NCBI GenBank assembly: GCA_916610825.1
Contig: OU744450.1
Coordinates: 5,022,030-5,086,029, forward strand
Direction: 5' to 3'
Source: Haliclystus octoradiatus
Lineage: Eukaryota; Cnidaria; Staurozoa; Stauromedusae; Haliclystidae
Length of the DNA stretch: 64,000 nucleotides
The position numbers were made by a program, and so were the translations under genes. Within the stretch, counting starts at the first letter, position 1; the number at the start of each line of letters is the position of its first letter. This document shows, one piece after another, positions 13,826-64,000 of the stretch. The notes beneath the pieces were generated by a model. The model was not told where the DNA came from and made no database searches. It saw nothing but the letters and a program-made list of their open reading frames with translations.

Positions 13826-14609
13826 TTATTCACACACTTCTATTATCATTTCAAATGCAATTTCCACTCTCTGTATAATCATTCAAGTCTTCATCGTACC
13901 ATAATGAATACACCTCACTTTACTCAAGTAAAAACAGTCACGAGTAGCTATGAATGTGGTTGTCATGCCATTTCCTTCGAATTCCGTGAAAGCTGATTGA
14001 TCAGCAATGATCCTACCACGGAAATCTTTCACTAGAGCTATTCTGTTTGCGTCAGGACCACCCCAATAACATCCGAAGGGCATTGATACATAAGCACATG
14101 TTATTCCACCTTTAATGTGATTCAATCTTATTCTGTAGAGCCCAGTTGTCAGGAGAAAATGGAAACTACCTGGTTTTTCATCTCTGCTTTCAACATAAGG
14201 AGGATTAGCTCAGATGGCAGAGCAACCGAACTTCAGATCGGATCATATCTGATCGACCGTGGTTCAAATCCCCCTAAGGTCAACTCAGCCTTGACTTTAT
14301 CTGAAACATCAAATGAGTACCATCTGAGGATGGCGGATGGAATGGTCCAGAGGGAATTGCATTGTGAGTAGCTGCGGCGCATCGTTGCGCATTGAAAATC
14401 GAGACCTATCTGCCATGAAATCTGTTGAAATTGATCTGCAGTGTCGCGGCTGAGATCAACAAAGAGCGTTTAAAATCATTGCTCTCAGCGAAAAAAGCCA
14501 CTCATCTAGAAGTAGAGGAGTGGTACGGGTGCCTTCGGTAGGGCGACACCGTCTACATTACTTACTTTACTTTCAACATCAATAGGGTGAAGACCTGCTT
14601 TGAGATAAT
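13826..14609 (-). pseudogene. family copy A, exon 2, interrupted by a SINE
   Basis: Minus-strand homologue of exon 2 of the intact genes B-E. The splice acceptor (TTCCATTCCAG) gives a start at 14609. Residues matching MPFGCYWGGPDANR, LVKDFRGRIIAD and FEGNGM are readable. It is dead in several ways: a 373-bp SINE (14197-14569) sits in the coding sequence, a frame change follows DCFYLSK, and a second one near the C-terminus precedes a GTGTGTGAATAA ending. The cysteine found in AFCEYEG of other copies is threonine here. Its exon 1 partner is at 16518-16877. Confidence 0.88.
14197..14569 (+). mobile_element. tRNA-derived SINE, copy 2, inserted in a coding exon
   Basis: Full-length copy of the same SINE as at 11975, with tRNA-like head (TAGCTCAGATGG, GGTTCAAATCC), body and TTACTTACTTTAC tail. 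It is flanked by a perfect 10-bp target duplication, CTTTCAACAT, at 14187-14196 and 14570-14579. Comparison with intact copy B (about 18100-18115, GGCTTCAACATTAATCGA) shows that the insertion is in exon 2 of copy A. Confidence 0.93.
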
Positions 14610-17731: not shown

Positions 17732-18144
17732 TTAACATCTTTCAACAAACATTTCAAATGTTGTCTTTCCAGAATTGTCGGTTTCTGAAAGGTTCTTAAA
17801 GTCTTCATCATACCAAAATGAATACCGTTGGTTTTGACTCAATTGACTACAATCATGAGTAGCTACGAAAGTATCCATGCCATTACCCTCATATTCACAG
17901 AATGATGATTCGTCAGCAATAATTTCACCACGAACGTCTTTCACCAACATCAGTCTGTTTGCTTCAGTAGCACCAGCCCAATAGCAGCCAAAAGGTAAGA
18001 ATGAAGGATTGGAACATGCCACTCCACCGCTAAGATGGTGTAATCTGATTTTGTAGAGAGCAGTTGGCAAGAGAAATTTGAAACTACCAGGTCTGTCATC
18101 TCTGGCTTCAACATTAATCGAATTGGAAGTTGCTTTGAAGAAAT
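17732..18144 (-). CDS. family copy B, exon 2 (C-terminal domain)
   Basis: Second, last exon of intact gene B; exon 1 is 20348-20714 and the intron is 2.2 kb. The acceptor TATTTCAG gives a start at 18144. The intron is phase 1, as in C-E, and joining makes a 259-residue protein. This exon encodes PTALYKIRLHHLSGGVAC, LPFGCYWAG, LVKDVRGEIIADESSFCEYE, FVATHDC, RYSFWYDEDF and a cysteine-ending tail (VERC). The five cysteines suggest a disulfide-stabilised extracellular domain. I do not recognise the domain. One codon is missing after GMDT relative to C-E. The last 110 bp are almost identical to D and E, unlike the rest of the exon. Confidence 0.85.
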
Positions 18145-20347: not shown

Positions 20348-20714
20348 TTGGAAATTTTCCGATGTAATTTGAATATTCTTTTGCAACTAGAATACCATCC
20401 TCCTCGTTGAAGTTTTCATTTGCTTTCGTTCTAAACAGTTGACACGTTACATTGGTGATGTCTACATCAATAACATTCATAGATAAAAATTCTGATCTAA
20501 CGGCTAATATCATCATGCATCTTCCTTTCGTTGTTCTAGAATAGATTTCCGATGGTTGCGCTGTGTAAAACATACCAATTTTAATGTACAAAAACTGCCC
20601 ATTCGTCATATTTAGCATGCTACGAGTTTGGCAATCTCCCATACAAGTTGCCAGAAAATTCAGGTAGCAACAAACTGCGTACTTGAAAATCACATGTGAT
20701 ATTAACCGCGTCAT
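20348..20714 (-). CDS. family copy B, exon 1 (signal peptide and N-terminal domain)
   Basis: The start ATG at 20714 was chosen because MTRLISHVIFKYAV aligns with MAPQLKYIILKYAV of C and E; an upstream in-frame extension has no counterpart. A hydrophobic segment (about residues 5-24) ends near CMGDC, consistent with a signal peptide. The N-terminal domain keeps the C-x(n)-LSMNVIDVDITNVTCQLF core and a Y-N-Y-I-x-K-F end. That pattern loosely resembles PAN/apple domains; this is inference. Two N-glycosylation sequons (NMT, NVT) are visible. The donor A|GTAAG at 20347 gives 367 bp, the same length as in C, D and E. The gene runs opposite to C-E. Confidence 0.85.
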
Positions 20715-24988: not shown

Positions 24989-25355
24989 ATGGCGCCGCAA
25001 TTGAAATACATCATTTTAAAGTATGCAGTTTGTTTCTTTATGAACTTTGTGGCAACTTGCATGGGGGATTGCCAAACTCGTAGTATGCCAAATAATATAA
25101 CATATGGGCAAATCCTGAATACTAAAATTGGGATGTTTCACACAGCGCTACCATTTCAATTCTATTCTAACACAACGATGAAAAGATGTACGATGATGCT
25201 TGCTGCTAGATCACAATTGTTATCTATGAATGTTGTTGGTGTAGACATCGCCAATGTTACATGCCAACTGTTCAAAACCAAAGCAAATGAAGAATTCAAC
25301 GAGGATGGTATTCTAGTTGCGAAAGATTATTCAAATTACATAGAAAAGTTTACAG
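24989..25355 (+). CDS. family copy C, exon 1 (signal peptide and N-terminal domain)
   Basis: ATG at 24989, MAPQLKYIILKYAVC; the hydrophobic segment to about residue 25 and the CMGDC junction suggest a secreted protein. The domain after the leader has sequons NIT, NTT and NVT, and the core KRCTMMLAARSQLLSMNVVG...VTCQLF. A PAN/apple-like fold is possible but unproven. The exon ends KFTG with donor CAG|GTAAGA at 25356; phase 1. With exon 2 (25707-26122) the protein is 260 residues. A TATATTATA-like sequence lies about 100 bp upstream. Confidence 0.88.
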
Positions 25356-25706: not shown

Positions 25707-26122
25707 GCTACATCAAAGCAGCTCTTAATCTGATTGATGTTGAAACCAAGGATGACAAGCCAGGAAGTTTCAATTTTATCTTGCCAACTGCACTCTATAA
25801 AATCAGACTACATCACGTCAGTGGCAGAGTGAGATGTGCAGAAGATCTACATTCAATGCCATTTGGGTGTTATTGGCAGGGTCCTAACGCAAACATAATG
25901 ATGTTGGTGAAAGGCTTTCGCGGTGAAATCATTGCTGACGAATCAGCATTTTGTGAATATGAGGGTAATGGCATGGATACAAAGTTTGTAGCCACTCATG
26001 ATTGTTTTCAATTGAATCAAAATCAACAGTATTCAATTTGGTACCACGAAGACTACATTGATCACTCAGAATCTAGCAATTCTGGAAAGACAACAATGGA
26101 AATGTTAGTGGAAATCTGTTAG
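25707..26122 (+). CDS. family copy C, exon 2 (C-terminal domain)
   Basis: Acceptor AACATTTCAG at 25706. The encoded sequence starts YIKAALNLIDVE and contains LYKIRLHHVSGRVRC, SMPFGCYWQGPNAN, LVKGFRGEIIADESAFCEYE, FVATHDCFQL, QYSIWYHEDY and ends MLVEIC. Five cysteines. The last third (HDCFQL to EIC) differs from D and E at many positions, although the remainder of the exon and the flanks are almost the same. The intron (25356-25706) lacks a segment of about 560 bp that D and E have. Confidence 0.88.
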
Positions 26123-30599: not shown

Positions 30600-31092
30600 T
30601 ATAGACGCCAATTTTACTAATTTGAATGTGAACGGTACATTGACGAATACATGAAGATAAATAAGCAGGTATAAAGACGACAAATGAATAGACACAATTT
30701 GTTACGGCAATAATAAAGTTTGTTGAATAAAGTTGAATAAACCAATAATCTTGTGAGTTGATTGAAATATATATATATATGATTACTGTACTGTTGATAA
30801 ATCCGTTTTAAACTAGAAAGAGATTAAATTATATTAATTATGATTAACATGACATACTAAAGTAAACAATTTTATAAGTTACGTAAAATAGGATAAATTC
30901 ATACCGTGTGCTCTTTTCCGCGTCTTCACTGTTCTCTTTCTGTTCTACACTGATTGATATCACGTTGACATATTAATAAATGTATGTCACGATTTGTTCT
31001 ATTTAGGAGGATTTTATAATTAAACGAATCAAGTAGTAAGTATAGAGAAAATGAATAGTTCGAGAAATCTATGGGGAAAATTATCGCTTACA
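30600..31092 (-). repeat. 3' LTR of the unit 2 BEL/Pao element
   Basis: 493 bp, same length and near-identical sequence as 36689-37181. In element orientation it starts TGTAAGCG and ends CGTCTATA. Confidence 0.93.
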
Positions 31093-31227
31093 GCCTCCCT
31101 AATTTACGAAGTATCAATTGAGTTAATTAATAATAAAAAGTGATAATTTTCTACGCAATGGTTAAATATATACAAAACTGTTTTGAATCTTCTTCTTCTT
31201 CTTCGATTGTCATTGACATCTGAATCT

Positions 31228-33714
31228 TCACTGATCATCTGCTTCACATATCATGCATAATTTGTTTACAGGTCTCATCAAAATAGACTGCTTAGTTTGA
31301 AGCTTCACGCTTCTAATAATACCATCTTTTCCAGGATACACATCCGTGATACGACCCATAAGCCAATTTCCTCGTGGTTGATCTTCGTCATAAATTAAGA
31401 CTACGTCATTGACTTTGACATTACCATTTGAGCGTTGCCATTTTTGAGTAATAATAATAGTTGGCAAATATTCCTTTCTCCATCTTCTCCAAAACATATC
31501 GGCCAGATGCTGTGTTTGGCGCCATCTTCTTCTTGTGTAATTGTCATGTTCACTGAAGACTCCAGGTGGAAATGTTCCCTTGTAACGCTGTATTAACAAG
31601 TTATTTGGAGAAAGTGCTTGCAAATCGTTTGGATCATCAGACGAAAGAGTCAACGGTCTGCTGTTCAGTATTGCTTCACATTCAGTTATAAATGTATACA
31701 TTCTCTTGCTTTCCAATCGACGTTCTCCTAGTGTTCCAATCACCGCAGCCAGTGCTCGACGTACACTTCTAATAAGGCGCTCCCATACACCACTCATGTT
31801 AGATGCGGTTGGTGTTTGGAAGATCCATTTCGTTGCATATTGATGAAGAAACTTCTCAATCGTACTCTGATCCAGTTGTGACAGTGCATGCTTCAATTCA
31901 CGGTCTGCTGATTTGAAATTTGACCCATTATCACTGCGTAACTCCTTTGGCTGTCCACGGCGGTTAACAAATCTTCTGAGAGTATCGATAAAGTCATTGG
32001 TGTCCAACGATTCAGAAACTTCTAGATGGATTGCCCGTGAATTCAGGCAAGTGAAAATGCAACCCCATCTTTTATGACATTTTCTGCCTTCCTTTACTAA
32101 TAGTGGGCCAAAATAGCCTAATCCAGTATACGTGAATGGAGGGTCATCGGCTTGTAATCTTGATGCTGGTAACTCAGCCATAGAAGGTTGCATTCTTTTC
32201 GCCATGTGCTTTTTACATTGCACACAGCTTCTGATTAGCTTTCTTGCGTTTGGCCTTGCCCCCAAAATCCAGTACTTTTGTCTTAGTTCTGCAAGTACAT
32301 GCTCCAAACTTCCATGAGACAACTTCAAATGAAAATGACGAAGTAATAAATTAGAGACATGATGAGATTTTGGTAGTATAAGAGGATGTTTCGCCTCAAA
32401 GCTAATTGGTGCGTTGTATAATCTTCCTCCAACTCTAAGCTGTCCATCCTTCATAGTCGGTGTTAACTTTACAAGGTTGCTGTCCTTTGATATTGCCTTC
32501 TTTTCTTGAAGATTTTTAATTTCTTTGTGAAAGGATGTATGTTGGACGTAATTGATAACAGAATTTTCAGCATTGATTAATTCTTGCAGTCCAAATGAAC
32601 CTTTCTTGCAGCTTTTAGGATTTTTCAAAAATTGAATAAATCTCTTCAGCCATGCAGTTTTTGTTATCAATTTATCCCAAGATGAATATCTTGTAATGAA
32701 GTCGTCGAACAGTTGTTTACTCTGGTTCTCTGTTTGACTTACGCTGTAGTTACTGCATTTCTTTATTTCTGGATCGTCATCTGATAGAGCTACATCATTG
32801 CTAAATGTATTTATTGGCCAAGCTGATTCTGTCTGGAGTAAAAACTTTGGGCCAGTGAACCATTTAGAATGTTGCCGCAAATTGGATACCGTCGCTCCTC
32901 TGGATACGATATCTGCTGGGTTCATCTTAGTTGGAACATATCTCCATTGCGATTGCTCAGTCGTATCTCTTATCTCTTCTATGCGATTTGCCACAAAGGG
33001 ATGGAATCTTTTGGTTTCATTGCTAATGTATTTCAATACTGTGGTAGAGTCTGTCCAGAAGTAGCTGTCATTTACATTGAGATCCAATTCTCTAAGGACA
33101 CTTGCATGGACTCTTACAGCGATAGTAGCAGCCTGTAATTCTAGACGAGGTATACTTGTTTGTCTTCTGGGTGCTAGTCTTCCCTTAGCAATCACAAAGC
33201 AAAAATTTATGTCTCCACGTAATGATGATGAACGAATATAAGAGACAGCACCATACGCCTTTTCTGAAGCGTCAGCAAAGGTGTGTAGTTGGATGTTCTT
33301 GCTTTCTGGTAGTACCATTAACCTTGGAATGGACATTTCTTCTGCTTGTTGAACCTCAGTAAGCCACAATTGCCATCGTCGTTTATCTTCATCGGACAAA
33401 ACGTCATCCCAATCGATCTTTCTTTGCCAGAGCTCTTGAAGTAGTAGCTTTGCATTCAGTAATATCGGTGCTGCTATTCCAAGTGGATCATATGTTGAAC
33501 TAATAGTTGACAGTATGCCTCTCTTTGTAAGTGGAGATGATGTTGTTATTGCTTTATATCCAAGCGTATCTTCCGTAACTCTCCACTGCACTCCCAACGC
33601 TCTCTGCGGGGCTGTCTCTTGCTTGAATAGGTCTATAGCGGTAGGGGCTTGTTGCGATGCTTCAAATGACGCAACTACTTTTGGAGAGTTGCTTAGCCAC
33701 TTGGTTAGTTTGAA
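31228..33714 (-). pseudogene. BEL/Pao Pol, 3' part: RT end, RNase H, integrase
   Basis: The open frame continues in frame from the TGA at 33715-33717 down to 31228; no ATG is needed because this is the second half of one polyprotein. RNase H is seen by HTFADAS (about 33273), PRLELQAA and FWTDSTT. The integrase zinc region has HLKLSH and CVQCKKH. In the catalytic core the first aspartate is replaced by glycine (GLGYFGP, GGC codon at 32118-32116), while the second D (RSDNG, about 31932) and the E (GVWERL) remain, 49 residues apart. A C-terminal region with WRRWRKEYLP follows. The missing first acidic residue should abolish strand transfer. Host role: none. Confidence 0.92.
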
Positions 33715-36231
33715 TCAACCCTTTTTGAGCAACTTGACTAACTCTTTGCTTAAATTGATAGCTTTTTCTTCGTTGTCAACTGATTTTAGCAAATCATCTA
33801 CGTAAAAATTCCTTTTAACTGTCTTAACTGCTTCGTCACTGTAATTGTCTGCATTGTCAATAGCAGTTTGTTGTAAAGCATATGTTGCGCAACAAGGACT
33901 GTCAGTTGAACCAAAGATGTGTACATTCATAGCATAATCTATAGGGTCTTTTGTTATCTCATTTTCCCACCATAGAAACCGTAAGGAGTGTGTATCAGCT
34001 GGTGTGACTCTTACTTGCAGAAACATTTTGCAAATATCAGCAAGCATGGCTATTTTGTGTTCCCTGAACCTTAGCAATACTCCGATAAGATCGTTAGTTG
34101 AATCAGGCCCATGCATCAGTTCTTCGTTGAGTGATATTCCTTTGTACTTTGCGGCTGCATCAAAGACAACTCTCAATTTTGATTTATTTGGGTTTGACAC
34201 TGCATGATGCGGTAAGTACCATATTTTGTTGCTTTCAACTGCCAATTCTTGGTGTGACAATCTCTTAGCGTGACCTTGTTCTAAATAATCTTGCATTACG
34301 TCTTTATAAGCATTATAATAATTTGAATTCTTTACAAATTTGTTTTTTAACGGCATAATTCTCTTCAGTGCTAACTGTCTGTTGTTTGGTAAACTTGTAT
34401 CAGGCTTACGCCATAACAATCCTGTTTCATAATGCCCTTCTTTTAGAATTGTCTTTTCGCTTAATATTTGCAATGAACGTTTGTCTTCAATGGAATGCGC
34501 TTTAGCTCCAGATGTACCATAGCTTTCTATTGCCCAAAACCGCTCTATGCTCTTATTAAGTATATCATCCTTGATTGTATTAACTGCGTTAGCGGAGAAA
34601 GTTACACCCTCCTCGTTTGATTCCTTTAATTTCCCTAACAGGCACCATCCCAATTTGGTTTTGACAGCTATTGGCTGATTTGGCTTTCCTGAAATGATTT
34701 CATCATGGATCATTGCCTCCGGGACATCTGTGCCAATGATCATCGAAACTGAGCTATAATCTGCTAAGGGTAGCGGAACATTTTTTAGATGAGGGTAGCC
34801 TTTTAGATCTCTTGCCTTTGGTCTTTTAGGCATTGCAACATATAAATCATCTATTGCCCATACAGTTTCTAGTTTAATCCTGGTGTTGGTATCATCATTC
34901 ATTGCAGCTACTTCATAACTAATTTTGGATGCTTCCCTTTTTGTTGAAATGTCACTCACAGTGCTTAGGTTTAGCTCATGTTTATCACCTGTGAGATTCA
35001 ATTTATCTGCTAGCCATTTGCTGCACATGGTCAAAGATGATCCGGAATCAAGCAGTGCATACGTTGTTATCTCCTTTCCATATTTTGCTATTGCTCTGAC
35101 AGCAACTATTTGAGTCAAAGCCGGTGATAAATGTACAGTTGAATTCGTTGTCATGGTTACCGATGGCACTGACGGTTCTTCCAAATTGTTGCTCGTGTTG
35201 CTATCGGATATCACGTGATTGGTTTGTCTACCCTCGTTTACATTCATTGTTGATTCTGTATTATGTAATAGAGTGTGATGCCGACGTTTGCACGATTGAC
35301 ACGTATTTTCACTTCTACATAGGTTAGATGTATGTGAGATTCCCAGGCAGTTAAAACATAGCTTATAGCTTTTTACTACCGTCAATCGTTCTTGGTAGTT
35401 CATATCTAAGAATTTTGAACATTTGTTTATCCGATGGTCTTGCTTACATAACGTACATTCCCTTTGTTTATAAACATTCGATTGCTCAGGAACTGAACCA
35501 ATGGCATTAACTGGGTTCAGTTTTGTCTGGCTGCTTTTCATGTCATTCTTTGCACGACCAAAAACTGGATCGTTCAAAATATCTGCTTGTAAAGCAACGA
35601 ATTTGGCCATGTCTGATAACTCAGGTACTTGACCCTTGATTCGCATCTTAGTGGCAATTGTTGCCCATTTGTTTTGCATGGAATGGGGTAATCGCTTGTA
35701 CACCTGATTTAATGTTATTGAAGCATTGATGTCTGATCGATATCCTGATCTATTTAATGTGTCAACGCAGTCCTGTAATGAATATGAATAATATAGAATA
35801 CCGTTTGCATCATCATCTTGCAACTGCTTTCCTGTTGTTATTTTAGCTATAAAGGCTGTAGCAACTTCGTAGGGGTTTCCGAATTGTTTTTTAAGGATTG
35901 TTAACCCTCTTGTAAATCCATCTTCTAGACCAATACAATTTTGAATTGCAGTTTTAGCCTCCCCCGTACAACTATTGATTAAGTGCCATAACTTTTCATT
36001 TTCATTCAACCCTGTAGGGGCCATCATCTGCTTGAAAGTTTCAATAAATCGTATGTATTCTGTCGCGTCCCCACTAAAGGAAAGGGGGCGAATAGTTGGC
36101 AAACCGATTCTTGCAATTATATTTCCCAATTGATTTGCTTGGTTGTCGTTACTGTTTGCTAAATTTGAATTGGTTGTTAACAATTGATTTATTTTTTGGA
36201 AGCGTGTCAAACCAATCGTGCACTTTTTCAT
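33715..36231 (-). pseudogene. BEL/Pao Gag-protease-RT, broken by a nonsense codon
   Basis: About 838 codons. Gag capsid region: RPLSFSGDATEYIRF (DUF1759-like). Zinc knuckle CFNCLGISHTSNLC is at about residues 291-304 (CX2CX4HX4C). Aspartic protease: ALLDSGSS with D at about 395. RT: LADICKMFLQV and YVDD at about 810-813. The frame ends at TGA 33715-33717, where related elements have a glycine codon (the next residues read FKLTKW); the frame then continues as 31228-33714. This is a single nonsense change. The upstream end overlaps 36149-36649 in another frame. Confidence 0.92.
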
Positions 36232-36649
36232 TTACGGTTAATTGGTCGTTTAGCGGTTTCACAGATGTTATAATTGGTTTAATTTCATTAGTTTCTGTTA
36301 ACTCATGTTCTGAGACTTCAGAGCCGCTGTCATCATTTTCACTGTCATCACAATATTTTAAATCGAGTTCTGATTTCTTCAAGTTCATATTTACTGTCAA
36401 TAACTTTTTTGACATTGTCAATTCCGCTTCTTTCTCGACGTATTTTACGGTCTCGTCTCTTTTGTATTGTGCTAGCTCCAACGCATGCTGTGCCTCTCTT
36501 CGGCGCGTCGAATTTGATGACTTAGATGCTTTTGAGTACCTTGTAGAATGCGTTTTTTGACTTCTAGCCCGGGTTGATCTTTGTTCGATAAGTTGTCCCT
36601 CTAAAGGGGGCATAGAAGTGCCTTCTGCACCTTCGGTACCGCGAGACAT
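36149..36649 (-). pseudogene. BEL/Pao Gag, N-terminal part, out of frame with the rest
   Basis: The ATG at 36649 lies 39 bp inside the 5' LTR and starts MSRGTEGAEGTSMPPLEGQ. 166 residues, highly charged with a likely coiled-coil stretch (RREAQHALELAQYKRDE). The Gag continues only in the +1 frame (33715-36231). The switch could be at an A6 run (CCAAAAAAT, about 36200), either as a one-base insertion or as frameshifting. BEL elements usually have a single long frame, so an indel is the simpler reading. Confidence 0.8.
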
Positions 36650-36688
36650 GCTTTCTTTTAACGGTCAAAGGTATACGTTTAAAACTAA

Positions 36689-37181
36689 TATAGACGCCAA
36701 TTTTACTAATTTGAATGTGAACGGTACATTGACGAATACATGAAGATAAATAAGCAGGTATAAAGACGACAAATGAATAGACACAATTTGTTACGGCAAT
36801 AATAAAGTTTGTTGAATAAAGTTGAATAAACCAATAATCTTGTGAGTTGATTGAAATATATATATATATGATTACTGTACTGTTGATAAATCCGTTTTAA
36901 ACTAGAAAGAGATTAAATTATATTAATTATGATTAACATGACATACTAAAGTAAACAATTTTATAAGTTACGTAAAATAGGATAAATTCATACCGTGTGT
37001 TCTTTTCCGCGTCTTCACTGTTCTCTTTCTGTTCTACACTGATTGATATCACGTTGACATATTAATAAATGTATGTCACGATTTGTTCTATTTAGGAGGA
37101 TTTTATAATTAAACGAATCAAGTAGTAAGTATAGAGAAAATGAATAGTTCGAGAAATCTATGGGGAAAATTATCGCTTACA
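36689..37181 (-). repeat. 5' LTR of the unit 2 BEL/Pao element
   Basis: 493-bp partner of 30600-31092; the target duplication ATACC follows at 37182. Confidence 0.93.
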
Positions 37182-39177: not shown

Positions 39178-39544
39178 ATGGTGCCGCAATTGAAATACAT
39201 CATTTTAAAGTATGCAGTTTGTTTCTTTATGAACTTTGTGGCAACTTGCATGGTGGATTGCCAAACTCGTAGTATGCCAAATAATATAACATATGGGCAA
39301 ATCCTGAATACTAAAATTGGGATGTTTTACACAGCGCTACCATTTCAATTCTATTCTAACACAACGATGAAAAGATGTACGATGATGCTTGCTGCTAGAT
39401 CACAATTGTTATCTATGAATGTTGTTGGTGTAGACATCGCCAATGTTACATGCCAACTGTTCAAAACCAAAGCAAATGAAGAATCCAAAGAGGATGGTAT
39501 TCTAGTTGCGAAAGATTATTCAAATTACATAGAAAAGTTTACAG
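39178..39544 (+). CDS. family copy D, exon 1
   Basis: Intact 367-bp first exon, ATG at 39178, donor CAG|GTAAGA at 39545, phase 1. It differs from C and E by MVPQ at the start, CMVDC in place of CMGDC near the likely signal-peptide cleavage site, and EESKED in place of EEFNED. Three N-glycosylation sequons are kept. It pairs with exon 2 at 40476-40891 for a 260-residue secreted protein. Confidence 0.88.
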
Positions 39545-40218
39545 GTAAGAAAGTAATTGATTTGTTCTGCATGTGAATATGAGTGTAGTATGTCGTAAAC
39601 GTGACTTTTGATAGATCTATACATATAGACTGGTCCAAAAGAATGAAAATTTCGATTTCAATTGCATTCTCGATTTTATTGTTTTAATGGGTTTGAAAAT
39701 CATTAGTTCAAAAGTTTTTATTACACGCTGCAGTTTCCAAAAATTCTTTCATAAATCATAGTAAATTGAAATTGAAAAATCTGTCAACATCTTCACAGAA
39801 TAGCAAACCAAACACTTCTATAATCTGTCAAAATAACAGTGAAAGCCATACATTCAAATGAATCACTTTGAAACACAAATTTTCAGTATAGGTTCTCATC
39901 TAATTAGACTTTATGCCACCGTAATATTTCTGAGATAGTTACCTTTATAGGCATCAAAAATTATTTAAAAATACTTTGCTTAGATTTGATTACATTGTTT
40001 GAAATTTTGAAGCGTTTTCCCTATTGATTCTGTCTATTAATTTGGAGGAGCATTGAGCACCCATTTCCGAACATTTCCTGAACTCAAATTTAGCACTTTT
40101 AATTTTTTTACCTAGAAAAGCAATAAAATTGAGAATGTTATTCAACTTTCAAGCTTTTATTAGTTGATTATGTTTTTCTTGCGCTATTGGTCTTGCTGTT
40201 ATTGTTGATGCAGTTTTA

Positions 40219-40245
40219 TGTGTTGTTGTTGTTGTTGTTGTTGTA

Positions 40246-40287
<42 letters not shown>

Positions 40288-40288
40288 G
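40219..40288 (+). repeat. (GTT)n microsatellite in the gene D intron
   Basis: About 70 bp of GTT repeats, interrupted once (GTAATTGTT). The paralogous array in the gene E intron is at 55580-55631. Confidence 0.9.
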
Positions 40289-40475
40289 CATCATTAACAG
40301 CTACAGATAATGCAATCTAAAAGTTTTGGTTTTGAGGAAATGATGACATTGTTTGTGCTATTGTTTCTATAATAGTATGTGTCATCATGTTGTGATGTTG
40401 TTTTGTTTTTTGTTGATTGATGTGTTACCAACTTTTTCATCCGCTTTATTAATGTTTCATACCTTAACATTTCAG

Positions 40476-40891
40476 GCTACATCAAAGCAGCTCTTAATCT
40501 GATTGATGTTGAAACCAAGGATGACAAGCCAGGAAGTTTCAATTTTATCTTGCCAACTGCACTCTATAAAATCAGACTACATCACGTCAGTGGCAGAGTG
40601 AGATGTGCAAGAGATCTACATTCAATGCCATTTGGGTGTTATTGGCAGGGTCCTTACGCAAACACAATGATGTTGGTGAAAGGCTTTCGCGGTGAAATCA
40701 TTGCTGACGCATCAGCATTTTGTGAATATGAGGGTGATGGCATGGATACAAAGTTTGTAGCCACTCATGATTGTAGTCAATTGAATCAAAACCAACGGTA
40801 TTCATTTTGGTATGATGAAGACTTTGAGAACCTTTCAGAAACCGACAATTCTAGAAAGACAACATTTGAAATGTTAGTAGAAATCTGTTAG
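40476..40891 (+). CDS. family copy D, exon 2
   Basis: Acceptor AACATTTCAG at 40475, stop TAG at 40889-40891, 416 bp as in C and E. The first two thirds follow copy C (LHHVSGRVRCARDLHSMPF, GFRGEIIAD). From THDCSQLNQNQRYSFWYDED onward it follows copy B. Five cysteines are kept. The intron (39545-40475) has a segment not present in C. Confidence 0.88.
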
Positions 40892-41169
40892 CCCCACTGT
40901 CAACTATCGGTCATTTGCAAACTTATTTCGATCCCTCCGATTATCGATATACTCCTTTTATGCATTTTAGTATGGCACTTTTGAAGCAATTTAGAAATAA
41001 TTAATTATTTGATCAGATCAAACAAGAAACACTGCATAATTATAATACGGTAGTTTGAAACCATTTTAACATAAAATCATGAAATTTATTCTCAAAAGAC
41101 GACATTTATTGTATCGACTTATAAATAGACTCAAATAGAAGCTAATATACATTCTGTGTAGAAGTATAT

Positions 41170-41357
41170 TGTAGTGCTACGGCCTTGTATTCGTGATGGC
41201 CTCGTAATCTTGATATAGATAAGTAGCATTGTACATGTAATAGGGGAGTTTATGTATGACTAGCAAACTGGTGTTGTCTCTGAGTTTTCTGAGTTATTAT
41301 TATTACTGTTTAATTCACCATTATTATTATAGTGTCATTGGATAACCGGGCACTACA
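41170..41357. mobile_element. 188-bp solo-LTR-like insertion
   Basis: Starts TGTAGTGC and ends GCACTACA, flanked by a GTATAT duplication (41164-41169 and 41358-41363). The empty site is in unit 1 at about 26395. TG...CA ends and a 6-bp duplication fit a solo LTR; a small inverted-repeat element is the alternative. Unit 3 has the same insertion at 63883. Confidence 0.75.
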
Positions 41358-41806
41358 GTATATAGTCCCTTAGAAAAATTCAAACAATCATATGGACATG
41401 CTGACTATCACATTGCTATTGAAAATAGTTTACGATTATTCACTATGAATTAGTTAAATCGAAAACTACTTTAAATTATGTACCCAAACTAGCTGCAGGT
41501 TGTTATCGTTAAAACTCAGATAGAAATGAAACCATGTAAAATGTAAACGAGGAAGCACCGAGATGAATTTAAATACAATTTTATTTCGAACTAAGCTAGG
41601 AGACTCCCAACTGTCAGTGAAACAACAAGGCAATGGAGAAAACTATCCTGTAAATAAAAGCACATCGAAAACACTTAATAGACATATAGATTAATCTTTG
41701 TATTATAAATTGTTTCAGATATGTAAATAGAGTAATTACTTGTAATGGTTTCTATCTAAATAATGAGTTTTTCCGATTCAAATGGCTTACGTGTATTGTA
41801 CCTTCT

Positions 41807-45653: not shown

Positions 45654-46113
45654 TGTAGAAACTAATTTACCATATTTGTTGTCATGGTAACTTGTTAATT
45701 CACATTGTCTTTGTCATCACCATAGTAACATTAATATTGTCATACGGTCATACAGCACATGTCAAACTGTTTCACATTCACTGTCATAGTTCCTGTCATG
45801 TTGTCAATTCACTAATGGTTATTTGTCTGTTGCCCTAATTTAGTGTTATATTGAGTGTTTGTATTGTGATTGGTCAACTTGTAATCATTGCTGTGTTTTA
45901 ACTAATCTTGTGCTACACTTCCCATCCACTGTTCGTCTTGGGGCCACATAGTACGGTCGTAATAGATTGTTATTAAAATTATACGCTGTAGTTTTCTCTT
46001 GGCCTACTTCTTGTCTTGTTGTTCTTGCGGTCTCAAGCGGACAGTCAAATACAGTTACAGTCCTCTGAAGTCAACGTTAGGCTTTGGAAAGCAAAGCAAT
46101 TATCTCAATAACA
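45654..46113 (+). repeat. 5' LTR of the unit 3 BEL/Pao element
   Basis: 460 bp, begins TGTAGAAAC and ends CAATAACA; same as 52463-52922 by eye. Confidence 0.94.
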
Positions 46114-46131
46114 TGGTCCGTCTTTGGAACC
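46114..46131 (+). promoter_or_regulatory. tRNA primer-binding site
   Basis: TGGTCCGTCTTTGGAACC immediately follows the LTR, complementary to a tRNA 3' end of the form ...GGACCA. The tRNA identity was not determined. Confidence 0.75.
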
Positions 46132-46140
46132 TGAATCAGT

Positions 46141-46794
46141 GGTAAGTTTTTTTTGTGCTTATTTGTTAGCACTCCTTGAGTAGTTATTTTAGTTTGTCTT
46201 TTAGCATACTAGACAAAAACAGAACGCCGTTTCTATTAGCCTGTATCTCAGATTAGATCAGGGATTGAAACCATCCTAGAGTTTTCTTTTGTGCATTGAA
46301 AGCACTTTAGAATAGAACGCAATTTTTTGATCAGTTTTCTTTGTGTTTTTTACAATTAAATTACGCATTAGAATATAACGCATTTTCAAGTTTCTTTTTA
46401 CTTTCTGAATTAGTTTTTTGTTTATTTAGTAGACATCTTCTCTTTGAATATTCCTTTGTTTCCGATCGTTTGACTTTACTCGTGATATATATATCGGCCC
46501 TCTTGCTTATTGGCACGATTCTTCAATAATATTTACTCAACTTTTTAAATTATTTTTGCTAGCGTATTGTGTTGTTTTGCTCATTGGCTGCAGACTTTGA
46601 TGCTTAAGAACATAATATACGTCTATGCCGCATAGCTTAGTAAAGATATAGTATATTCTGTGTGGGATATCAATCTGATTTTCTCTGATCTTTTGACGAC
46701 TTTGGCCTGATATCAGCATTTAGGTCTACAACCAGGCTAGATGCCCAAAACAATGCTTCTTTGTTCTGCTTTTGTGTTTATTTTATTTTGTTAG
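46141..46794 (+). other. probable leader intron of the BEL/Pao element
   Basis: GTAAGT at 46141 fits a splice donor, and a T-rich tract ending TTATTTTGTTAG at about 46794 fits an acceptor. Splicing would join the primer-binding-site leader to a point about 45 bp before the polyprotein ATG at 46840 and remove upstream ATGs. This is predicted from consensus only. Confidence 0.5.
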
Positions 46795-46839
46795 GTTCCA
46801 GTACGTGGTAATAATTTGGTCTGGCTTGGTTGGCACAGC

Positions 46840-49800
46840 ATGAGCAAAAGTAAAGCAAAAGCAGAAATGTACTCGGTGAGTTCAGACGACTTTCTTCGGG
46901 AAGCAAACGAATTTGATCATGCGATCGCACAAGCCGCTAGGAATGTTTCCAAAGTAAATTCAGCAACAAGAAAATACATGATTACCAGGTTAGAGCGTTT
47001 GTTTTCAAGTTTAACTAATGCGACGTACTCTTTAGCCCACGAATCTCCTACCGATATTTCTGTAGAAATAAGTGAGCAATACATTCATAGGGAGGCACTA
47101 TTTTATCAAACTATCGATTTATTACATTCAGTGACTCCTGAGTCACCAGGGTTAACAAGTTCTTTCGTAAATCAGGCTCGTCAATATTCTGATTCCGACG
47201 AGATGCAAAATAAATCTGCAGTTCCTAGAAATCCTAGCAATTTGCCTTCAGTAAGCAAACAAACACCGTCAAGTAGAAAAATTAAGCGACACCATGTCAA
47301 CAAAGGCGGCGCTCCTTTAGATCAAACAAATGTGTTAACAACTAATAAAAGCGAGTCAATTTTAGCATCAATTGCAGATGCGTTATCTGCAATGCAAATC
47401 AAGCTTCCCACGTTTTCTGGTATAGCCATTCAATATCAAGATTTTATTTCTTCCTTTAAAGCACAGGTTGATAGTAGGCATACGTTAAGTTCTGCAACAA
47501 AATTCCATCATTTAGTATCACATTTATCACAAAATGCCTTGTCATCCGTAAACTCATTGCCTCGTGATGATGAAGGGTATGCAACAGCTTTATCAACATT
47601 AGACAAATTGTATGGAAACTCACACAAAATTGCTAGAGCACATTTAGATTTACTTTGTATTGATGAGCCAGTGTCGTATAAATTTCCGCTAGAAGTAGAA
47701 CGGCTTTATCATCAATTATTAGCTGCTTCTTCCACCTTCGATAGATTGAAATATAATAATGATGTAAATTCTACATCCACGCTTTTGAAAATTATAGATC
47801 GTCTGCCTGAACATGCTCAGTATCGTTGGCGAAAACTGAACAATTCACAAAAAACTTTGGCCACTTTTCATGATTTGGTTTTATTCATGGAAAAGGAGAC
47901 AGATTTTGTCAATGATCCAGTATGGTCACGTTTAAGTCACAAAGCAACGGTACATCCTTCCAAAAATATTTCTTCAATAAATGTTACCACCAATCAAAAT
48001 TCTTCAAGTAGTAATAACCCTTTTTGTGTATTTTGTGATCAAAATCATAAATCTCGAAACTGCCCAAATACTGGTTTATCGCAAGATGAAATAATCAAAA
48101 CTTTAAAAGATAACCAGCTATGTTTTCGCTGCTTTTCCCCTGGTCATTTTAGCCAGCGATGTTTTTCACGAACAATATGTTCCATCTGCAATAGAAGGCA
48201 TCATACGTTTTTACACAAAAATGCTCCAACCTTTGTTCAGACTGCACCTGCAGCAGTCACCAATACTATTCATACTTCGTTAGCAGACAGTGCAAAAGTA
48301 CTATTACCTGTTGTTGTTTTAGATGTAATCGGACCAAATGGATCCACTCAAGTAAATGCATTGCTTGACACAGGAAGTCAATTTACATTAATAAATGCAT
48401 CTATATGCCAAAAATTAGGAATTGAAGGACATGTTGACACGTTGAATTTCAATACTGTGTCCAATACCAAAACTGTTCAACAGTGTGGACGGGTTACAGT
48501 CCCAGTGAAATCTTTGACCAAAAATTGTTTTCGATTGACCAATGTTGCATCCGTGAAAGGATTATTTTTACCTTATATTTCCAACATTCCTCCTTCTATA
48601 AAATCCCTTCCCCATATCGCAGAGCATGTTTCTAATTTTGCTCAGGGACGCCTAGATATGCTGATTGGAGCCGATCACAGTGATCTCATCCTTCCAACAG
48701 AAACCATAAATGGAAGCTCTACTAAGGAGCCAATTGTCATAAAAACGCCTTTAGGGTGTTCTCTTTTAGGAGGGGAAAGTAGTTGCAAACATTTAAGTTC
48801 TTCTGGTGGAATTAATGTGATTGCCAATAATTTAGAAACTCCAACCCTACAATCCTTTTGGAACGCGGGTGATCTGTCAGAGGAATATTTTGGTTTGGAT
48901 AAGCCATACTCCCAAGATGATCTTTTTGCTATACAAAATTTGAAGAGCTCGTTAAAAGTTGTAGAAGGGCATTTTCAAGCCGATCTTTTATGGAAAAAAG
49001 ATTTTACAGGGTTACAAAATAACGAAATAGTTGCCAAGAAACGTTTGTCTTCATTAGTTAGAAAATTTGAATTTGATCCTAAGTTCAAGGAAGATTACTG
49101 TAAGGTGATGCAAGGATATATCAATGATGGTTGTGCAGCTCTAGTTCAAGATCCGTCTTTAAGTTCTCGTTATACACATTATTTACCCCATTTTGCTGTT
49201 TTTCATCCACGTAAACCAGATAAGCTGAGAATAGTTTTTGACGCTGCATGTAAATTTCGACAACAATCATTAAATGACCATCTTCTGTCTGGTCCTGATT
49301 TGTTAAATTCACTTGTAGGATGTCTGTTGCGCTTCAGAGAAAATCGATTCTGTGTCCTCAGTGATATCAAAGGCATGTTTCATTGTATAAAAGTAACGCC
49401 AGAACACACAGACGCCTTTCGTTTTCTTTGGTTTTTAGATAATGATTTTTCAAAACCTGCAGTATTTAAAATGCTTGTTCATGTTTTTGGGGCAATTAGT
49501 TCCCCAACTGTTGCAAATGAAGCTTTGCGCAGTATTGCCAACTTTGTTGAGGATCCAAACATTAAAGCAGCCATAAGGGACAACTTTTATGTCGATGATT
49601 TCCTTTACTCATCTGATGATTTACTAATAATGAATGAGGTTGTGTCTAAATTGTATGTTTTATTGCAAAATTTTGGTTTTGTTTTGACCAAATGGATAAC
49701 AAATGCACCATCTGTTTTAAAACATATTCCTGATGTTGATAAATCTGCCACCCAGGTCAAATTAGATTTAGGGGAAGATGCTTCTCAAAGAACTTTAGGT

Positions 49801-52293
49801 GTTGTCTGGGACATTAAACAAGATATCCTTCAATTTGAATTACCATCAAAGCTAGAAGTTACTGACACGAAACGAGGAATCCTTTCCTTAATTAGTTCTA
49901 TGTTTTCCCCTGATGGATTTCTTTCACCAATATACTTAGTTCCCAAATTAATTATGCGTTCCCTGTGGGCATTGAAGATCGACTGGGACGAACCACTACC
50001 ACCTGACCAAGCGTCAGAGTGGAAAGAATGGTTGGATGGCTTAGCATCCTTATCTAAAGTGTCTTACCCAAGATGTTTGAAAGGCCCTGATGTATTATCT
50101 TCACATAGCTCTGTTAGTATTCACACCTTCTGTGACGCAAGTCAAGACGGGATAGGTGTTGTTAGTTATGTAAGAGTTGATCGTAAATTAGAAAGGGGGG
50201 AGGGAAAAATTAATGTTGATTCTGGAGTATTTTGCAGGTTTCTTTTTGCTCGCTCACGCTGTGCTCCGATCAAGTCAGTAACCATCCCACGTCTGGAACT
50301 ACATGCAGCTACATTAGCGGTAAGGACAATCAATCAAATCAAACCTGAATTGCGCATGAAAGTAGATAAGTTTCATTTCTGGAGTGACTCCATGACAACT
50401 CTTGCCTACATTAGAAATTCTAGCAGGCGCTTTCCTGTTTATGTAGCAAATAGAATAAGTGAAATTTCATCTAGCACTTTCCCTGATCAATGGCACCACT
50501 GTCCTGGAAAATTGAATCCAGCTGACATTGCTTCAAGGGGAATCATGCCCTTGGCATTTAAGGAGTCTATGTGGACTGAAGGTCCTGATTTTTTGAAATT
50601 GGATGAATCTTTATGGCCTTCTTTACCAAGTAAAACTATTGATAAGGCTGAAATTGAGCAATTGTCAAATGCTGTTACAAATATTGTTTCCATTGATTCT
50701 GATAACCCTATTGCGTCTTTGATTTGCAAAACACGCTCGTTTTTCAAATTAATATGCATTGTTGCAAGAGTTTTGATGTTCATCTCCAATTGCAAAAATT
50801 CTGTGAAAACAAACAATTTGTCAAATAATAGTTACAATTTAAGAAATCGAAATGTTAAAAATGTTGTTGTTTCAAATGTTAAAAATGTTGTTGTTTCAAA
50901 TGTTAAAAATGTTGTTGTTTCAAATGTTGATGTTTTAACTGATAACTTATTGTTAGAAAGTAAGAGTGTTGTTGTGAAATGTGAACAGTTAAAGGCCTAT
51001 CCGAAAGAAATCAGTGCACTTAAAAATAAATCAAAAATACCGGTAAATAGTAAAATTCTTTTATTAAATCCTTTTCTTGACGACCGAGGAATTATTCGTG
51101 TTGGAGGAAGATTGGAAAATTCGAATCTTCCTTATGATGTTAAACATCCTATTCTTATTCCGAAACAATCTTTTTTGGTAAATTCAATTGTTGAGGATGC
51201 ACATTTATCTTTGAAGCATACCGGTGTTATGTGTATTGTGAATTTTATCAGGCAACATTTCTGGATACCTTCACTAACTTCTAAAGTAAAACAAAGAGCT
51301 CATGCATGTATCCCTTGCCAGAAACTACATGGACGTCGAATGGAACAATTCATGGCACCTTTACCTCATGACAGACTAATACAGACATTCCCCTTTGACG
51401 TAACGGGGGTAGACTACTTTGGGCCCTTTTATGTAAAAGTTTTAAGATCTACTGTTAAGTATTGGGGGTGTATTTTTACCTGCATGTCAATTCGAGCTGT
51501 CCATTTAGAAACCTCCTCCTCCCTAGACACAGATAGATTTATTTGTGTACTGAGAAGATTTTTAGCTAGGAGAGGAAAACCTAGTAAGATTATATCTGAT
51601 AATGGGACCAATTTTGTAGGGGCTGAGACCGAACTTAAGGTGGCGATCTCCAATTGGGATCAAAACCGTGTTTCGCAGTTTCTTCTATCTTCAGGAATCA
51701 CATGGAAATTCAATCCTGCCGGTGCTCCTCATCATGGTGGTGCGTGGGAAAGATTGATTCGATCTGTCAAACATTGCCTGAAAACTGTCCTTGGTAACCG
51801 ATCATATGACCTGGAGACGCTTCAAACATTGCTCACAGAAGTAGAAGCTGTTCTAAATTGCCGCCCTTTGACTGTTCTATCAAATGATCCTTTGGACCTG
51901 GACCCTTTGACGCCAAATCATCTGCTGTTGTTACGGAATGGTGTGTCTCAACCCCCTGGTACGTTTGACGATTCAGATATGATTCTAAGAAAACGCTGGA
52001 GAAAATCGCAAGCCCTCGCTGACTCGTTCTGGACAAAATGGAGTCAAGAATATGTCACCCTTCTCCAAGCAAGACAGAAATGGAAAACCTCCAAACCAAA
52101 TATCCAAGTTGGAGACTTGGTTCTAGTCATGGATGATAATTTAGTTCGTTCCCAATACCCAATGGGAGTTGTGATAGATGCGCCTGATGGGAAAGATGGT
52201 TTGGTACGCCAAGTTAAAATCAAAACTGCAACTGGTCAGCTAGTGCGTCCGCTGACGAAGATATGTCTCTTGGAGGGACAACCCTGTAAATAA
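46840..52293 (+). CDS. BEL/Pao Gag-Pol polyprotein (1817 aa), intact
   Basis: The ATG at 46840 (MSKSKAKAEMYS) is preferred over an upstream TTG. Gag capsid DUF1759-like region IKLPTFSGIAIQYQDF (about residues 187-320). Zinc knuckles: CVFCDQNH then CFRCFSPGHFSQRC (about 428-441), then CSICNRRHH. Aspartic protease LLDTGSQF (D about 510). RT with LSDIKGMFHCI and YVDD (about 917-920). RNase H: HTFCDAS (D about 1099), FWSDSMTT and NPADIASRG. A linker with three copies of an 8-residue repeat (about 1338-1363). Integrase: HLSLKH and CIPCQKLH zinc region, then D1525 (GVDYFGP), D1587 (SDNGTNF) and E1637 (GAWERL). All catalytic acids are present. The polyprotein acts in cytoplasmic particles for reverse transcription and nuclear integration of the element. 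Confidence 0.95.
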   Translation: MSKSKAKAEMYSVSSDDFLREANEFDHAIAQAARNVSKVNSATRKYMITRLERLFSSLTNATYSLAHESPTDISVEISEQYIHREALFYQTIDLLHSVTPESPGLTSSFVNQARQYSDSDEMQNKSAVPRNPSNLPSVSKQTPSSRKIKRHHVNKGGAPLDQTNVLTTNKSESILASIADALSAMQIKLPTFSGIAIQYQDFISSFKAQVDSRHTLSSATKFHHLVSHLSQNALSSVNSLPRDDEGYATALSTLDKLYGNSHKIARAHLDLLCIDEPVSYKFPLEVERLYHQLLAASSTFDRLKYNNDVNSTSTLLKIIDRLPEHAQYRWRKLNNSQKTLATFHDLVLFMEKETDFVNDPVWSRLSHKATVHPSKNISSINVTTNQNSSSSNNPFCVFCDQNHKSRNCPNTGLSQDEIIKTLKDNQLCFRCFSPGHFSQRCFSRTICSICNRRHHTFLHKNAPTFVQTAPAAVTNTIHTSLADSAKVLLPVVVLDVIGPNGSTQVNALLDTGSQFTLINASICQKLGIEGHVDTLNFNTVSNTKTVQQCGRVTVPVKSLTKNCFRLTNVASVKGLFLPYISNIPPSIKSLPHIAEHVSNFAQGRLDMLIGADHSDLILPTETINGSSTKEPIVIKTPLGCSLLGGESSCKHLSSSGGINVIANNLETPTLQSFWNAGDLSEEYFGLDKPYSQDDLFAIQNLKSSLKVVEGHFQADLLWKKDFTGLQNNEIVAKKRLSSLVRKFEFDPKFKEDYCKVMQGYINDGCAALVQDPSLSSRYTHYLPHFAVFHPRKPDKLRIVFDAACKFRQQSLNDHLLSGPDLLNSLVGCLLRFRENRFCVLSDIKGMFHCIKVTPEHTDAFRFLWFLDNDFSKPAVFKMLVHVFGAISSPTVANEALRSIANFVEDPNIKAAIRDNFYVDDFLYSSDDLLIMNEVVSKLYVLLQNFGFVLTKWITNAPSVLKHIPDVDKSATQVKLDLGEDASQRTLGVVWDIKQDILQFELPSKLEVTDTKRGILSLISSMFSPDGFLSPIYLVPKLIMRSLWALKIDWDEPLPPDQASEWKEWLDGLASLSKVSYPRCLKGPDVLSSHSSVSIHTFCDASQDGIGVVSYVRVDRKLERGEGKINVDSGVFCRFLFARSRCAPIKSVTIPRLELHAATLAVRTINQIKPELRMKVDKFHFWSDSMTTLAYIRNSSRRFPVYVANRISEISSSTFPDQWHHCPGKLNPADIASRGIMPLAFKESMWTEGPDFLKLDESLWPSLPSKTIDKAEIEQLSNAVTNIVSIDSDNPIASLICKTRSFFKLICIVARVLMFISNCKNSVKTNNLSNNSYNLRNRNVKNVVVSNVKNVVVSNVKNVVVSNVDVLTDNLLLESKSVVVKCEQLKAYPKEISALKNKSKIPVNSKILLLNPFLDDRGIIRVGGRLENSNLPYDVKHPILIPKQSFLVNSIVEDAHLSLKHTGVMCIVNFIRQHFWIPSLTSKVKQRAHACIPCQKLHGRRMEQFMAPLPHDRLIQTFPFDVTGVDYFGPFYVKVLRSTVKYWGCIFTCMSIRAVHLETSSSLDTDRFICVLRRFLARRGKPSKIISDNGTNFVGAETELKVAISNWDQNRVSQFLLSSGITWKFNPAGAPHHGGAWERLIRSVKHCLKTVLGNRSYDLETLQTLLTEVEAVLNCRPLTVLSNDPLDLDPLTPNHLLLLRNGVSQPPGTFDDSDMILRKRWRKSQALADSFWTKWSQEYVTLLQARQKWKTSKPNIQVGDLVLVMDDNLVRSQYPMGVVIDAPDGKDGLVRQVKIKTATGQLVRPLTKICLLEGQPCK
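50852..50929 (+). repeat. 24-bp tandem repeat, about 3 copies, inside the pol frame
   Basis: AATGTTAAAAATGTTGTTGT-type unit in three consecutive copies, keeping the frame, in the linker between RNase H and integrase. Confidence 0.9.
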
Positions 52294-52462
52294 AGACAGT
52301 AGCTTGTCGCAATATGTAACCCTGTTGGTTAAATTAATAATTAATTTCTAAGAAATAATTTTTTATAGTACGCTACATTGATAAAATAATTGTTACTTTT
52401 CAGTTTGTAAATTAGTTTAAATACGTTTAATATGAAAGACCAAGATATTTCATGGTGGGGAG

Positions 52463-52922
52463 TGTAGAAACTAATTTACCATATTTGTTGTCATGGTAAC
52501 TTGTTAATTCACATTGTCTTTGTCATCACCATAGTAACATTAATATTGTCATACGGTCATACAGCACATGTCAAACTGTTTCACATTCACTGTCATAGTT
52601 CCTGTCATGTTGTCAATTCACTAATGGTTATTTGTCTGTTGCCCTAATTTAGTGTTATATTGAGTGTTTGTATTGTGATTGGTCAACTTGTAATCATTGC
52701 TGTGTTTTAACTAATCTTGTGCTACACTTCCCATCCACTGTTCGTCTTGGGGCCACATAGTACGGTCGTAATAGATTGTTATTAAAATTATACGCTGTAG
52801 TTTTCTCTTGGCCTACTTCTTGTCTTGTTGTTCTTGCGGTCTCAAGCGGACAGTCAAATACAGTTACAGTCCTCTGAAGTCAACGTTAGGCTTTGGAAAG
52901 CAAAGCAATTATCTCAATAACA
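52463..52922 (+). repeat. 3' LTR of the unit 3 BEL/Pao element
   Basis: Second 460-bp LTR; preceded by the polypurine tract and followed by the ATACT target duplication. Confidence 0.94.
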
Positions 52923-54596: not shown

Positions 54597-54963
54597 ATGG
54601 CGCCGCAATTGAAATACATCATTTTAAAGTATGCAGTTTGTTTCTTTATGAACTTTGTGGCAACTTGCATGGGGGATTGCCAAACTCGTAGTATGCCAAA
54701 TAATATAACATATGGGCAAATCCTGAATACTAAAATTGGGATGTTTTACACAGCGCTACCATTTCAATTCTATTCTAACACAACGATGAAAAGATGTACG
54801 ATGATGCTTGCTGCTAGATCACAATTGTTATCTATGAATGTTGTTGGTGTAGACATCGCCAATGTTACATGCCAACTGTTCAAAACCAAAGCAAATGAAG
54901 AATTCAACGAGGATGGTATTCTAGTTGCGAAAGATTATTCAAATTACATAGAAAAGTTTACAG
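54597..54963 (+). CDS. family copy E, exon 1
   Basis: Intact 367-bp exon: ATG at 54597, donor CAG|GTAAGA at 54964, phase 1. The protein matches copy C exon 1 except FYTALP for FHTALP. Signal peptide, sequons and the cysteine pattern are kept. Its second exon lies 8.2 kb downstream (63187-63602) because a large DNA element sits in the intron, so splicing of this copy depends on skipping that insertion. Confidence 0.86.
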
Positions 54964-55631: not shown

Positions 55632-55943
55632 CATCATTAACAGGGTAAACGGAAAATTCAACTCGCGTCAGCTCTATTTAGTATCCAGTCTACTTTTTCA
55701 ATAGTACGAGCGCGGTTACGTTTCCACGTAATGTTGCTTTTGCGTCTATCGTCAACTTAATCGCATTCAGTAATGGCGTTTGTCTCGTAGTTTAGTAACT
55801 GCAATATTCAAGGTCAGCAACACAGAGTAGCGTGCTACAACATATAAGCTTTCACGACTGCCTTTACTTCATTGCTCATTATAAGGGGAATATGTAGGAT
55901 AACATATTTTGCGAGGCAAGCGCAATAATGTATGCATCCAGCA

Positions 55944-63186: not shown

Positions 63187-63602
63187 GCTACATCAAAGCA
63201 GCTCTTAATCTGATTGATGTTGAAACCAAGGATGACAAGCCAGGAAGTTTCAATTTTATCTTGCCAACTGCACTCTATAAAATCAGACTACATCACGTCA
63301 GTGGCAGAGTGAGATGTGCAGGAGATCTACATTCAATGCCATTTGGGTGTTATTGGCAGCGTCCTTACGCAAACAAAATGAAGTTGGTGAAAGACTTTCG
63401 CGGTGAAATCATTGCTGACATATCAGCATTTTCTGAATATGAGGGTGATGGCATGGATACAAAGTTTTTAGCCACTCATGATTGTAGTCAATTGAATCAA
63501 AACCAACGGTATTCATTTTGGTATGATGAAGACTTTGAGAACCTTTCAGAAACCGACAATTCTGGAAAGACAACATTTGAAATGTTAGTAGAAATCTGTT
63601 AG
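63187..63602 (+). CDS. family copy E, exon 2
   Basis: Acceptor AACATTTCAG at 63186, stop TAG at 63600-63602, 416 bp. Like D, its last third is B-like (THDCSQLNQNQRYSFWYDED). Differences from D include YWQRP, KMKLVKDF and AFSEYEG, where a cysteine present in B, C and D is serine. That leaves four cysteines in the domain, so one disulfide partner may be lost or re-paired. Frame and splice sites are intact. Confidence 0.86.
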
Positions 63603-63882: not shown

Positions 63883-64000
63883 TGTAGTGCTACGGCCTTG
63901 TATTCGTGATGGCCTCGTAATCTTGATATAGATAAGTAGCATTGTACATGTAATAGGGAAGTTTATGTATGACTAGCAAACTGGTGTTGTCTCTGAGTTT
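63883..64000. mobile_element. solo-LTR-like insertion, unit 3 copy, cut by the window end
   Basis: TGTAGTGCTACGG to the end of the window matches 41170-41287; the same left flank GTATAT precedes it. Confidence 0.72.

Follow-up and report, generated by a model that had tools for sequence, protein, structure and literature searches.

A short coding tract shared by lectin-type paralogues of Haliclystus octoradiatus and their inverted neighbour points to ectopic gene conversion

The window analysed here is a stretch of 64,000 nucleotides from the genome of the stalked jellyfish Haliclystus octoradiatus (GenBank assembly GCA_916610825.1, contig OU744450.1, positions 5,022,030 to 5,086,029 of the forward strand). 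By comparing one gene unit, D, with the whole 64-kb window, we placed the copies A to E, each with matching exon 1 pieces upstream (Table 1). Exon 1 of copy D has, judged by eye, a signal-peptide-like start. Copy A (13885-16780) is pseudogene-like, and its exon 1 seems, again by eye, to carry in-frame stops.

Table 1. Features of the lectin-type gene units in the window (positions count from the first nucleotide of the window; splice sites were read from the sequence).
Feature	Copy	Position	Strand	Remarks
Exon 2 remnant	A	13885..14196	-	frame disrupted; 3' part without match
Exon 1	B	20348..20714	-	
Exon 2	B	17732..18144	-	inverted copy
Unit-comparison match, exon 2 region	B	18151-17733	-	
Donor-type tract	B	17748..17860 (C6:5039777-5039889)	-	inverted copy; 97% to D
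Exon 1	C	24989..25355	+	
Exon 2	C	25707..26122	+	
Unit-comparison match, exon 2 region	C	~25656-26122		
Presumed native, unconverted tract	C	25994..26106	+	nearest other copies 83%; 80-81% to D, E, B
Exon 1	D	39178..39544	+	donor ACAG/GTAAGA, phase 1
Exon 2, predicted AJLec-type lectin domain with stop codon	D	40476..40891	+	acceptor TTTCAG/GC
Unit-comparison match, exon 2 region	D	~40425-40891		
Candidate converted tract	D	40763..40875 (maximum, 113 bp); 40775-40867 (minimum)	+	
Solo LTR	D	41170..41357	+	188 bp, TG...CA; target duplication GTATAT, 41164-41169 and 41358-41363
Exon 1	E	54597..54963	+	7.4-kb insert in following intron
Exon 2	E	63187..63602	+	
Unit-comparison match, exon 2 region	E	~63132-63602		
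Candidate converted tract	E	63474..63586 (C6:5085503-5085615)	+	2/113 from B
Solo LTR	E	63883..64000, beyond window end to 64070 (extended coordinates)	+	

Several mobile elements lie among these units. A BEL/Pao-type LTR retrotransposon (30600-37181) separates the C and D units, and the aligned pieces of its two LTRs (about 30600-31092 and 36689-37181) match at 100%, which indicates a young insertion. Between the D and E units there is a second BEL/Pao element, covering at least 45654-52809, in which one long open frame runs from 46795 to 52293 and the LTR stretches at 45654-46000 and 52463-52809 are identical. The insert in the E intron (55644-63003) ends in inverted sequences, is flanked by a target duplication of 7-8 bp, ATTAACA(G), and looks like a DNA transposon; its two open frames gave no Pfam match above cut-off. 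The mitochondrial COX1 of the species reads with TGA as Trp, and ARAGORN finds two mitochondrial tRNA genes, with anticodons TCA and CAT, features that are typical of medusozoan Cnidaria.

The assignment of exon 2 to the lectins comes from a sequence search of the PDB and not from Pfam, in which no family scored above cut-off for exon 1 or exon 2 of D and B. An exon 2 profile of four window sequences matched AJLec (PDB 6A56) with an E value of 6.9e-7, the only other row being a ribosomal protein at E 0.46, and a profile with 34 family members matched AJLec at E 1.3e-8. AJLec is a galactose-binding lectin from the sea anemone Anthopleura japonica (PMC6070535), and on this sequence match exon 2 is a homologue of that Ca2+-dependent lectin. 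The likeness takes the form of homology over the domain, the Cys48 and Cys61 positions being conserved in the family and the calcium-ligand motif W-Y-x-E-D-x-x-N-x-x-E-x-D-N-S-G-K being present in B and E and, with R in place of G, in D. There are differences as well. Arg64, which contacts galactose in AJLec (PMC6070535), corresponds to Q in C, D and E, to A in B and to variable residues across the family, and B to E lack the Cys15-Cys156 pair at the aligned positions; we therefore do not claim galactose specificity for these copies. Unlike AJLec, the staurozoan genes have a separate exon-1 part before the lectin exon, for which neither Pfam nor a PDB search by sequence returned a relative.

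We aligned exon 2 of A to E, and then aligned it again with six more copies from the same genome. In the tract at 40763-40875 copy B differs from D at 3/113 and from E at 2/113 positions, against 24/113 for C and D and 23/113 for C and E. Upstream of the tract within the exon (40476-40753) the partners are exchanged: B differs from D at 65/272 and from E at 68/272 positions, and C from D at 6/278 and from E at 10/278. Expressed as divergence, C departs from D and E by 2-4% upstream and by 20-21% within the tract, and B departs from D and E by 24-25% upstream; past the tract, the comparison of B with D/E again gives 5/16 differences over the final 16 bp of exon 2. A preliminary description, made from the letters alone, had proposed that D and E match B at all but some two or three sites over about 110 bp of exon 2, that the part of the exon before this stretch is far more diverged between B and D/E, and that C is nearly identical to D and E everywhere except in this stretch, and the alignment counts bear out all of this. 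Its bounds call for one adjustment. The location and the mosaic structure stand, and the limits given earlier represent the maximum extent: the 5' breakpoint falls between 40763 and 40775 and the 3' breakpoint between 40867 and 40876, leaving a copied stretch of 93 bp at minimum and 113 bp at maximum, wholly within coding exon 2.

The distribution of individual sites is equally discontinuous. All 22 exon 2 sites at which B, D and E agree against C lie inside the tract, and of the 66 sites at which C, D and E agree against B (sites that are gaps in B being left out) 65 lie outside and 1 inside, a split with a Fisher p of 8e-20. In the flanks, C departs from an agreeing D/E pair far more rarely than in the tract (8/2,313 sites 5' and 11/1,374 in the far 3' flank). 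Within the tract, B differs from both D and E at 40785 and 40826. Position 40853 carries a D-only G to A change that gives Arg where 144/145 family copies have Gly.

Clustering of the shared sites was assessed with our own GENECONV-style column permutation, rather than with the GENECONV program itself. With four copies (B, C, D and E; 5,000 permutations) the pairs B-D and B-E both gave p=0.0002, the floor of the test, with mismatches allowed or not. With eight copies (3,000 permutations) the global p values were 0.001 for B-E and 0.0003 for B-D when mismatches were allowed, and 0.011 and 0.24 when they were not, the last of these not being significant. The check suggested in the preliminary description, which was to look for uneven divergence along an aligned exon 2, thus turned out in its favour: divergence is non-uniform and the permutation results for B-D and B-E are largely significant. 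Trees of ten copies conflict in the same manner, the AU test rejecting a C+D+E clade within the tract (p=0.018) and, upstream of it, a B+D+E clade (p=0.009); because the tract is short, these tests of topology are only moderately strong.

A pattern of this kind might arise with no transfer at all, if C had evolved rapidly in the tract or if selection had held or driven B and D/E alike, and the overlap of the tract with hypervariable and possibly selected positions speaks for such a scenario. Synonymous sites argue strongly the other way. By the Nei-Gojobori method, B and D have 0 synonymous differences at 19.3 sites in the tract and 24.8 at 58.2 sites upstream (dS 0 vs 0.63), and C and D have 7.2 at 18.8 sites in the tract and 0 at 59.7 sites upstream (dS 0.53 vs 0). 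Since synonymous sites change partner along with the rest, constraint is not the explanation, and the possibility that the preliminary description had itself named as fatal to its proposal, namely that C alone was fast or that B-D/E identity reflected constraint, is contradicted. A C+D+E clade in the tract, besides being rejected by the AU test, would require a C branch of 0.34 where the branch upstream is about 0, and we regard an origin without transfer as extremely improbable. The same applies to an assembly artefact, that is, to chimeric or collapsed paralogues. Near-identical tandem copies are difficult to assemble and the support described here comes from the assembly, but two copies that lie about 22.7 kb from each other, D and E, contain the tract, and within it D has its private substitution (40853). 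The published H. octoradiatus assembly is described as HiFi-based and manually curated (PMC9975415), which also counts against an artefact and leaves it scarcely credible.

The two other alternatives concern the identity of donor and recipient. A genome search with the D tract returned seven matches, of which D, E and B stand at 97-100% and the next at 83%, with no further B-like, donor-like tract among the seven; a search with the C tract returned ten matches, the closest other copies standing at 83%, and no C-type tract in a B background was present among the matches found. B retains its own version of the tract, as in a non-reciprocal transfer. The B and C tracts lie at ordinary distances from outgroup copies (19/113 between B and F5, 19/113 between C and F5), and, when six outgroup copies are polled at the 22 diagnostic sites, their majority state is that of C at 12 and that of B/D/E at 9, with 1 tied, a split as expected from two long native branches, B and C. 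It is nonetheless conceivable that C was the converted copy, the C/D/E ancestor having had a B-type tract and C having later taken that of another paralogue: some C states look derived, as the outgroup majority at those 9 of 22 sites indicates. The donor would then have to be lost, no other copy among the ten matches exceeding 83% to the C tract, and the identity of B with D/E would still require an earlier transfer of its own. Because C is without a visible donor while D and E have one, movement of B-type sequence into the D/E ancestor takes one event where C as recipient takes two, which makes the latter improbable. Equally improbable, in our judgement, is that a third gene, lost or present only on another haplotype, gave the tract to both B and D/E. 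The 2-3 sites at which B differs from D and E leave room for a donor other than B, and a third gene could sit outside the single assembly that was searched; however, the B tract is at the ordinary outgroup distance expected of native sequence, and the seven genome matches contain no third B-like tract.

Site patterns, the synonymous switch, the conflicting trees, the donor search and a solo LTR common to D and E all support the reading that the preliminary description had favoured: transfer from B, or from a B-like gene since lost, into the ancestor of D and E by ectopic gene conversion, which we consider very probable. The direction of transfer is suggested by one-event parsimony and by the native branches of B and C, which are of ordinary length. 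As for the repair mechanism that may lie behind the tract, a break in exon 2 of the D/E ancestor would have been repaired with the inverted paralogue B, or a lost B-like gene, as template, the 93-113 bp being copied without exchange of the flanks. C would have retained its native sequence, and D and E would have inherited or shared the tract. At present B lies 23 kb from D.

The history of the C, D and E units appears more complicated than this single event. D and E have a solo LTR in common at the same place, with 3 differences, and C is without the insertion, having an uninterrupted site near 26393; near-identical LTRs occur genome-wide, several of them, among the matches listed, paired about 4.4 kb apart. 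By contrast, the 2,313 aligned sites 5' of exon 2 show no D/E excess (C against D and E at 8, D against C and E at 17, E against C and D at 15), so that D and E are not simply sisters along the entire unit, and for this part one has to suppose that C, D and E were later homogenised. E is also unusually diverged 3' of the tract, with 44 E-only sites in 1,374 (64070-65461 in extended coordinates) against 15 in 2,313 in the 5' flank, and the E unit may itself be a mosaic, given the divergence of this far 3' flank from C and D. Altogether, repeated exchange of sequence among the C, D and E units is probable. Upstream of the tract, at 63360-63468, exon 2 of E has eight private differences, all at codon position 1 or 2; several of these states equal those of outgroup copies, and a small mosaic, selection or relaxed constraint may be involved. 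An intron segment of D (39887-40424) was tried as a D/E marker and rejected: its first ~275 bp are a genome-wide repeat, and the segment showed no clean target duplication.

The position of the tract within the domain gives the event a possible functional side. In AJLec the sugar-site calcium is liganded by Glu141, Asp150 and Asn151 and a second, structural calcium by Asn21, Asp142, Asn145 and Glu148, and the site is built from helix 3 and three loops (PMC6070535). The HMMER alignment sets WYDEDFENLSETDNSGK of E (WYDEDFKNLSETDNSGK in B) opposite WYGEDLYNTMESDNSGK of AJLec, and the tract (codons ~96-132) spans the positions aligned with Glu141, Asp142, Asn145, Glu148, Asp150 and Asn151. Copy C reads WYHEDYIDHSESSNSGK: it has Ser where AJLec has Asp150 and Asp where AJLec has Asn145, E having Asp and Asn there respectively; C and E differ by 11 residues within the tract. 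At the aligned positions D and E thus have the complete set of sugar-site ligands (E, D, N) and C an incomplete one (E, S, N). We infer that the helix-3 and loop portion of the predicted calcium/sugar site is encoded by the tract, and that the event would have altered a predicted binding loop, with a possible effect on binding. Since the AlphaFold model of exon 2 from the four window sequences reached a pLDDT of 38.5 and was discarded, this consequence is read from the sequence alignment.

Copies B to E belong to a large family. Searching the genome at the protein level yielded 407 candidates, and 150 places were scored; the 146-copy set used below leaves out three of these places and, besides them, copy A and an interrupted copy at C6:4668746, adds one further copy, and includes 7 copies with in-frame stops, read as X. 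At the structural calcium positions, Asp142 corresponds to D in 145/146 copies, Asn145 to N or D in 141/146, and Glu148 to E in 132/143, and all of 145 copies have D, E or N at the Asn21 position, 5 of them N, so that the predicted second calcium site is found across the family with acidic substitutions. The full sugar-site set of Glu, Asp and Asn occurs in 21/146 copies, including B, D and E but not C. Variation is concentrated around the predicted groove, which holds 14 of the 20 most variable positions, 7 of the 20 being in the tract. Across 43 close pairs pN/pS was 1.18 in the groove vs 0.60 elsewhere (1.13 and 0.60 when the flagged mosaics and B to E are left out; Fisher 4e-5 on rounded nonsynonymous and synonymous counts), for a groove set that was mapped from AJLec but drawn after the entropy table had been seen, and that runs on to codon 63, further than the residues listed in the AJLec paper. 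Synonymous diversity is raised there too (pS 0.073 vs 0.045), which could result from cassette exchange but would not follow from selection on its own.

A scan for mosaics flagged 7/146 copies in four groups (D/E; L076/L081; L103/L104; L026), with the partners in every group on one chromosome and within ~170 kb. None was flagged in any of 20 recombination-free simulations, which used a nucleotide model without selection, and the thresholds of the scan were set with knowledge of the D/E case; the 7 flagged copies come from the 60/146 that have a neighbour under 6% and can be flagged at all. The mosaic-looking members other than D and E, at C2:37458140 (L076), C2:37463673 (L081), C10:16010594 (L103), C10:15995060 (L104) and C4:30476445 (L026), each appear to combine two paralogues of the same cluster. 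Elsewhere the family includes tandem lectin exon copies with identical translations (L114-L116, at C7:5301035, 5345701 and 5397391) and others with one common match score (L140-L143, C2:36158158-36203887), which suggests recent expansion of these arrays.

Ectopic, or interlocus, gene conversion is well known in tandem multigene families, among them MHC class I, the primate opsins and the snail FREPs. The case described here resembles these in its short non-reciprocal tract, its paralogous donor on the same chromosome, its unchanged flanks and the involvement of synonymous sites, and differs from them in that donor and recipient lie in opposite orientations and in that the family is one of AJLec-type lectins in a stalked jellyfish. 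Conversion between paralogues is textbook genetics and the event alone is unsurprising; it is the setting that is of interest. A literature search, judged by titles and the openings of abstracts, yielded no description of an AJLec-type family in Staurozoa. Well over 100 AJLec-type genes, a hypervariable predicted groove, a fixed structural calcium site and diversification due in part to conversion of loop cassettes between paralogues might together constitute an innate recognition repertoire, a tentative proposal made by analogy and one that we hold to be somewhat doubtful. FREPs and 185/333 proteins are the analogies for diversified innate recognition, and the fold here is a different, cnidarian one. 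What the tract adds is the movement of a predicted recognition loop between members of a large family of cnidarian lectins and, with groove-biased amino-acid change and other mosaics in the same family, it makes recognition-loop diversification in an early-branching animal a testable idea.
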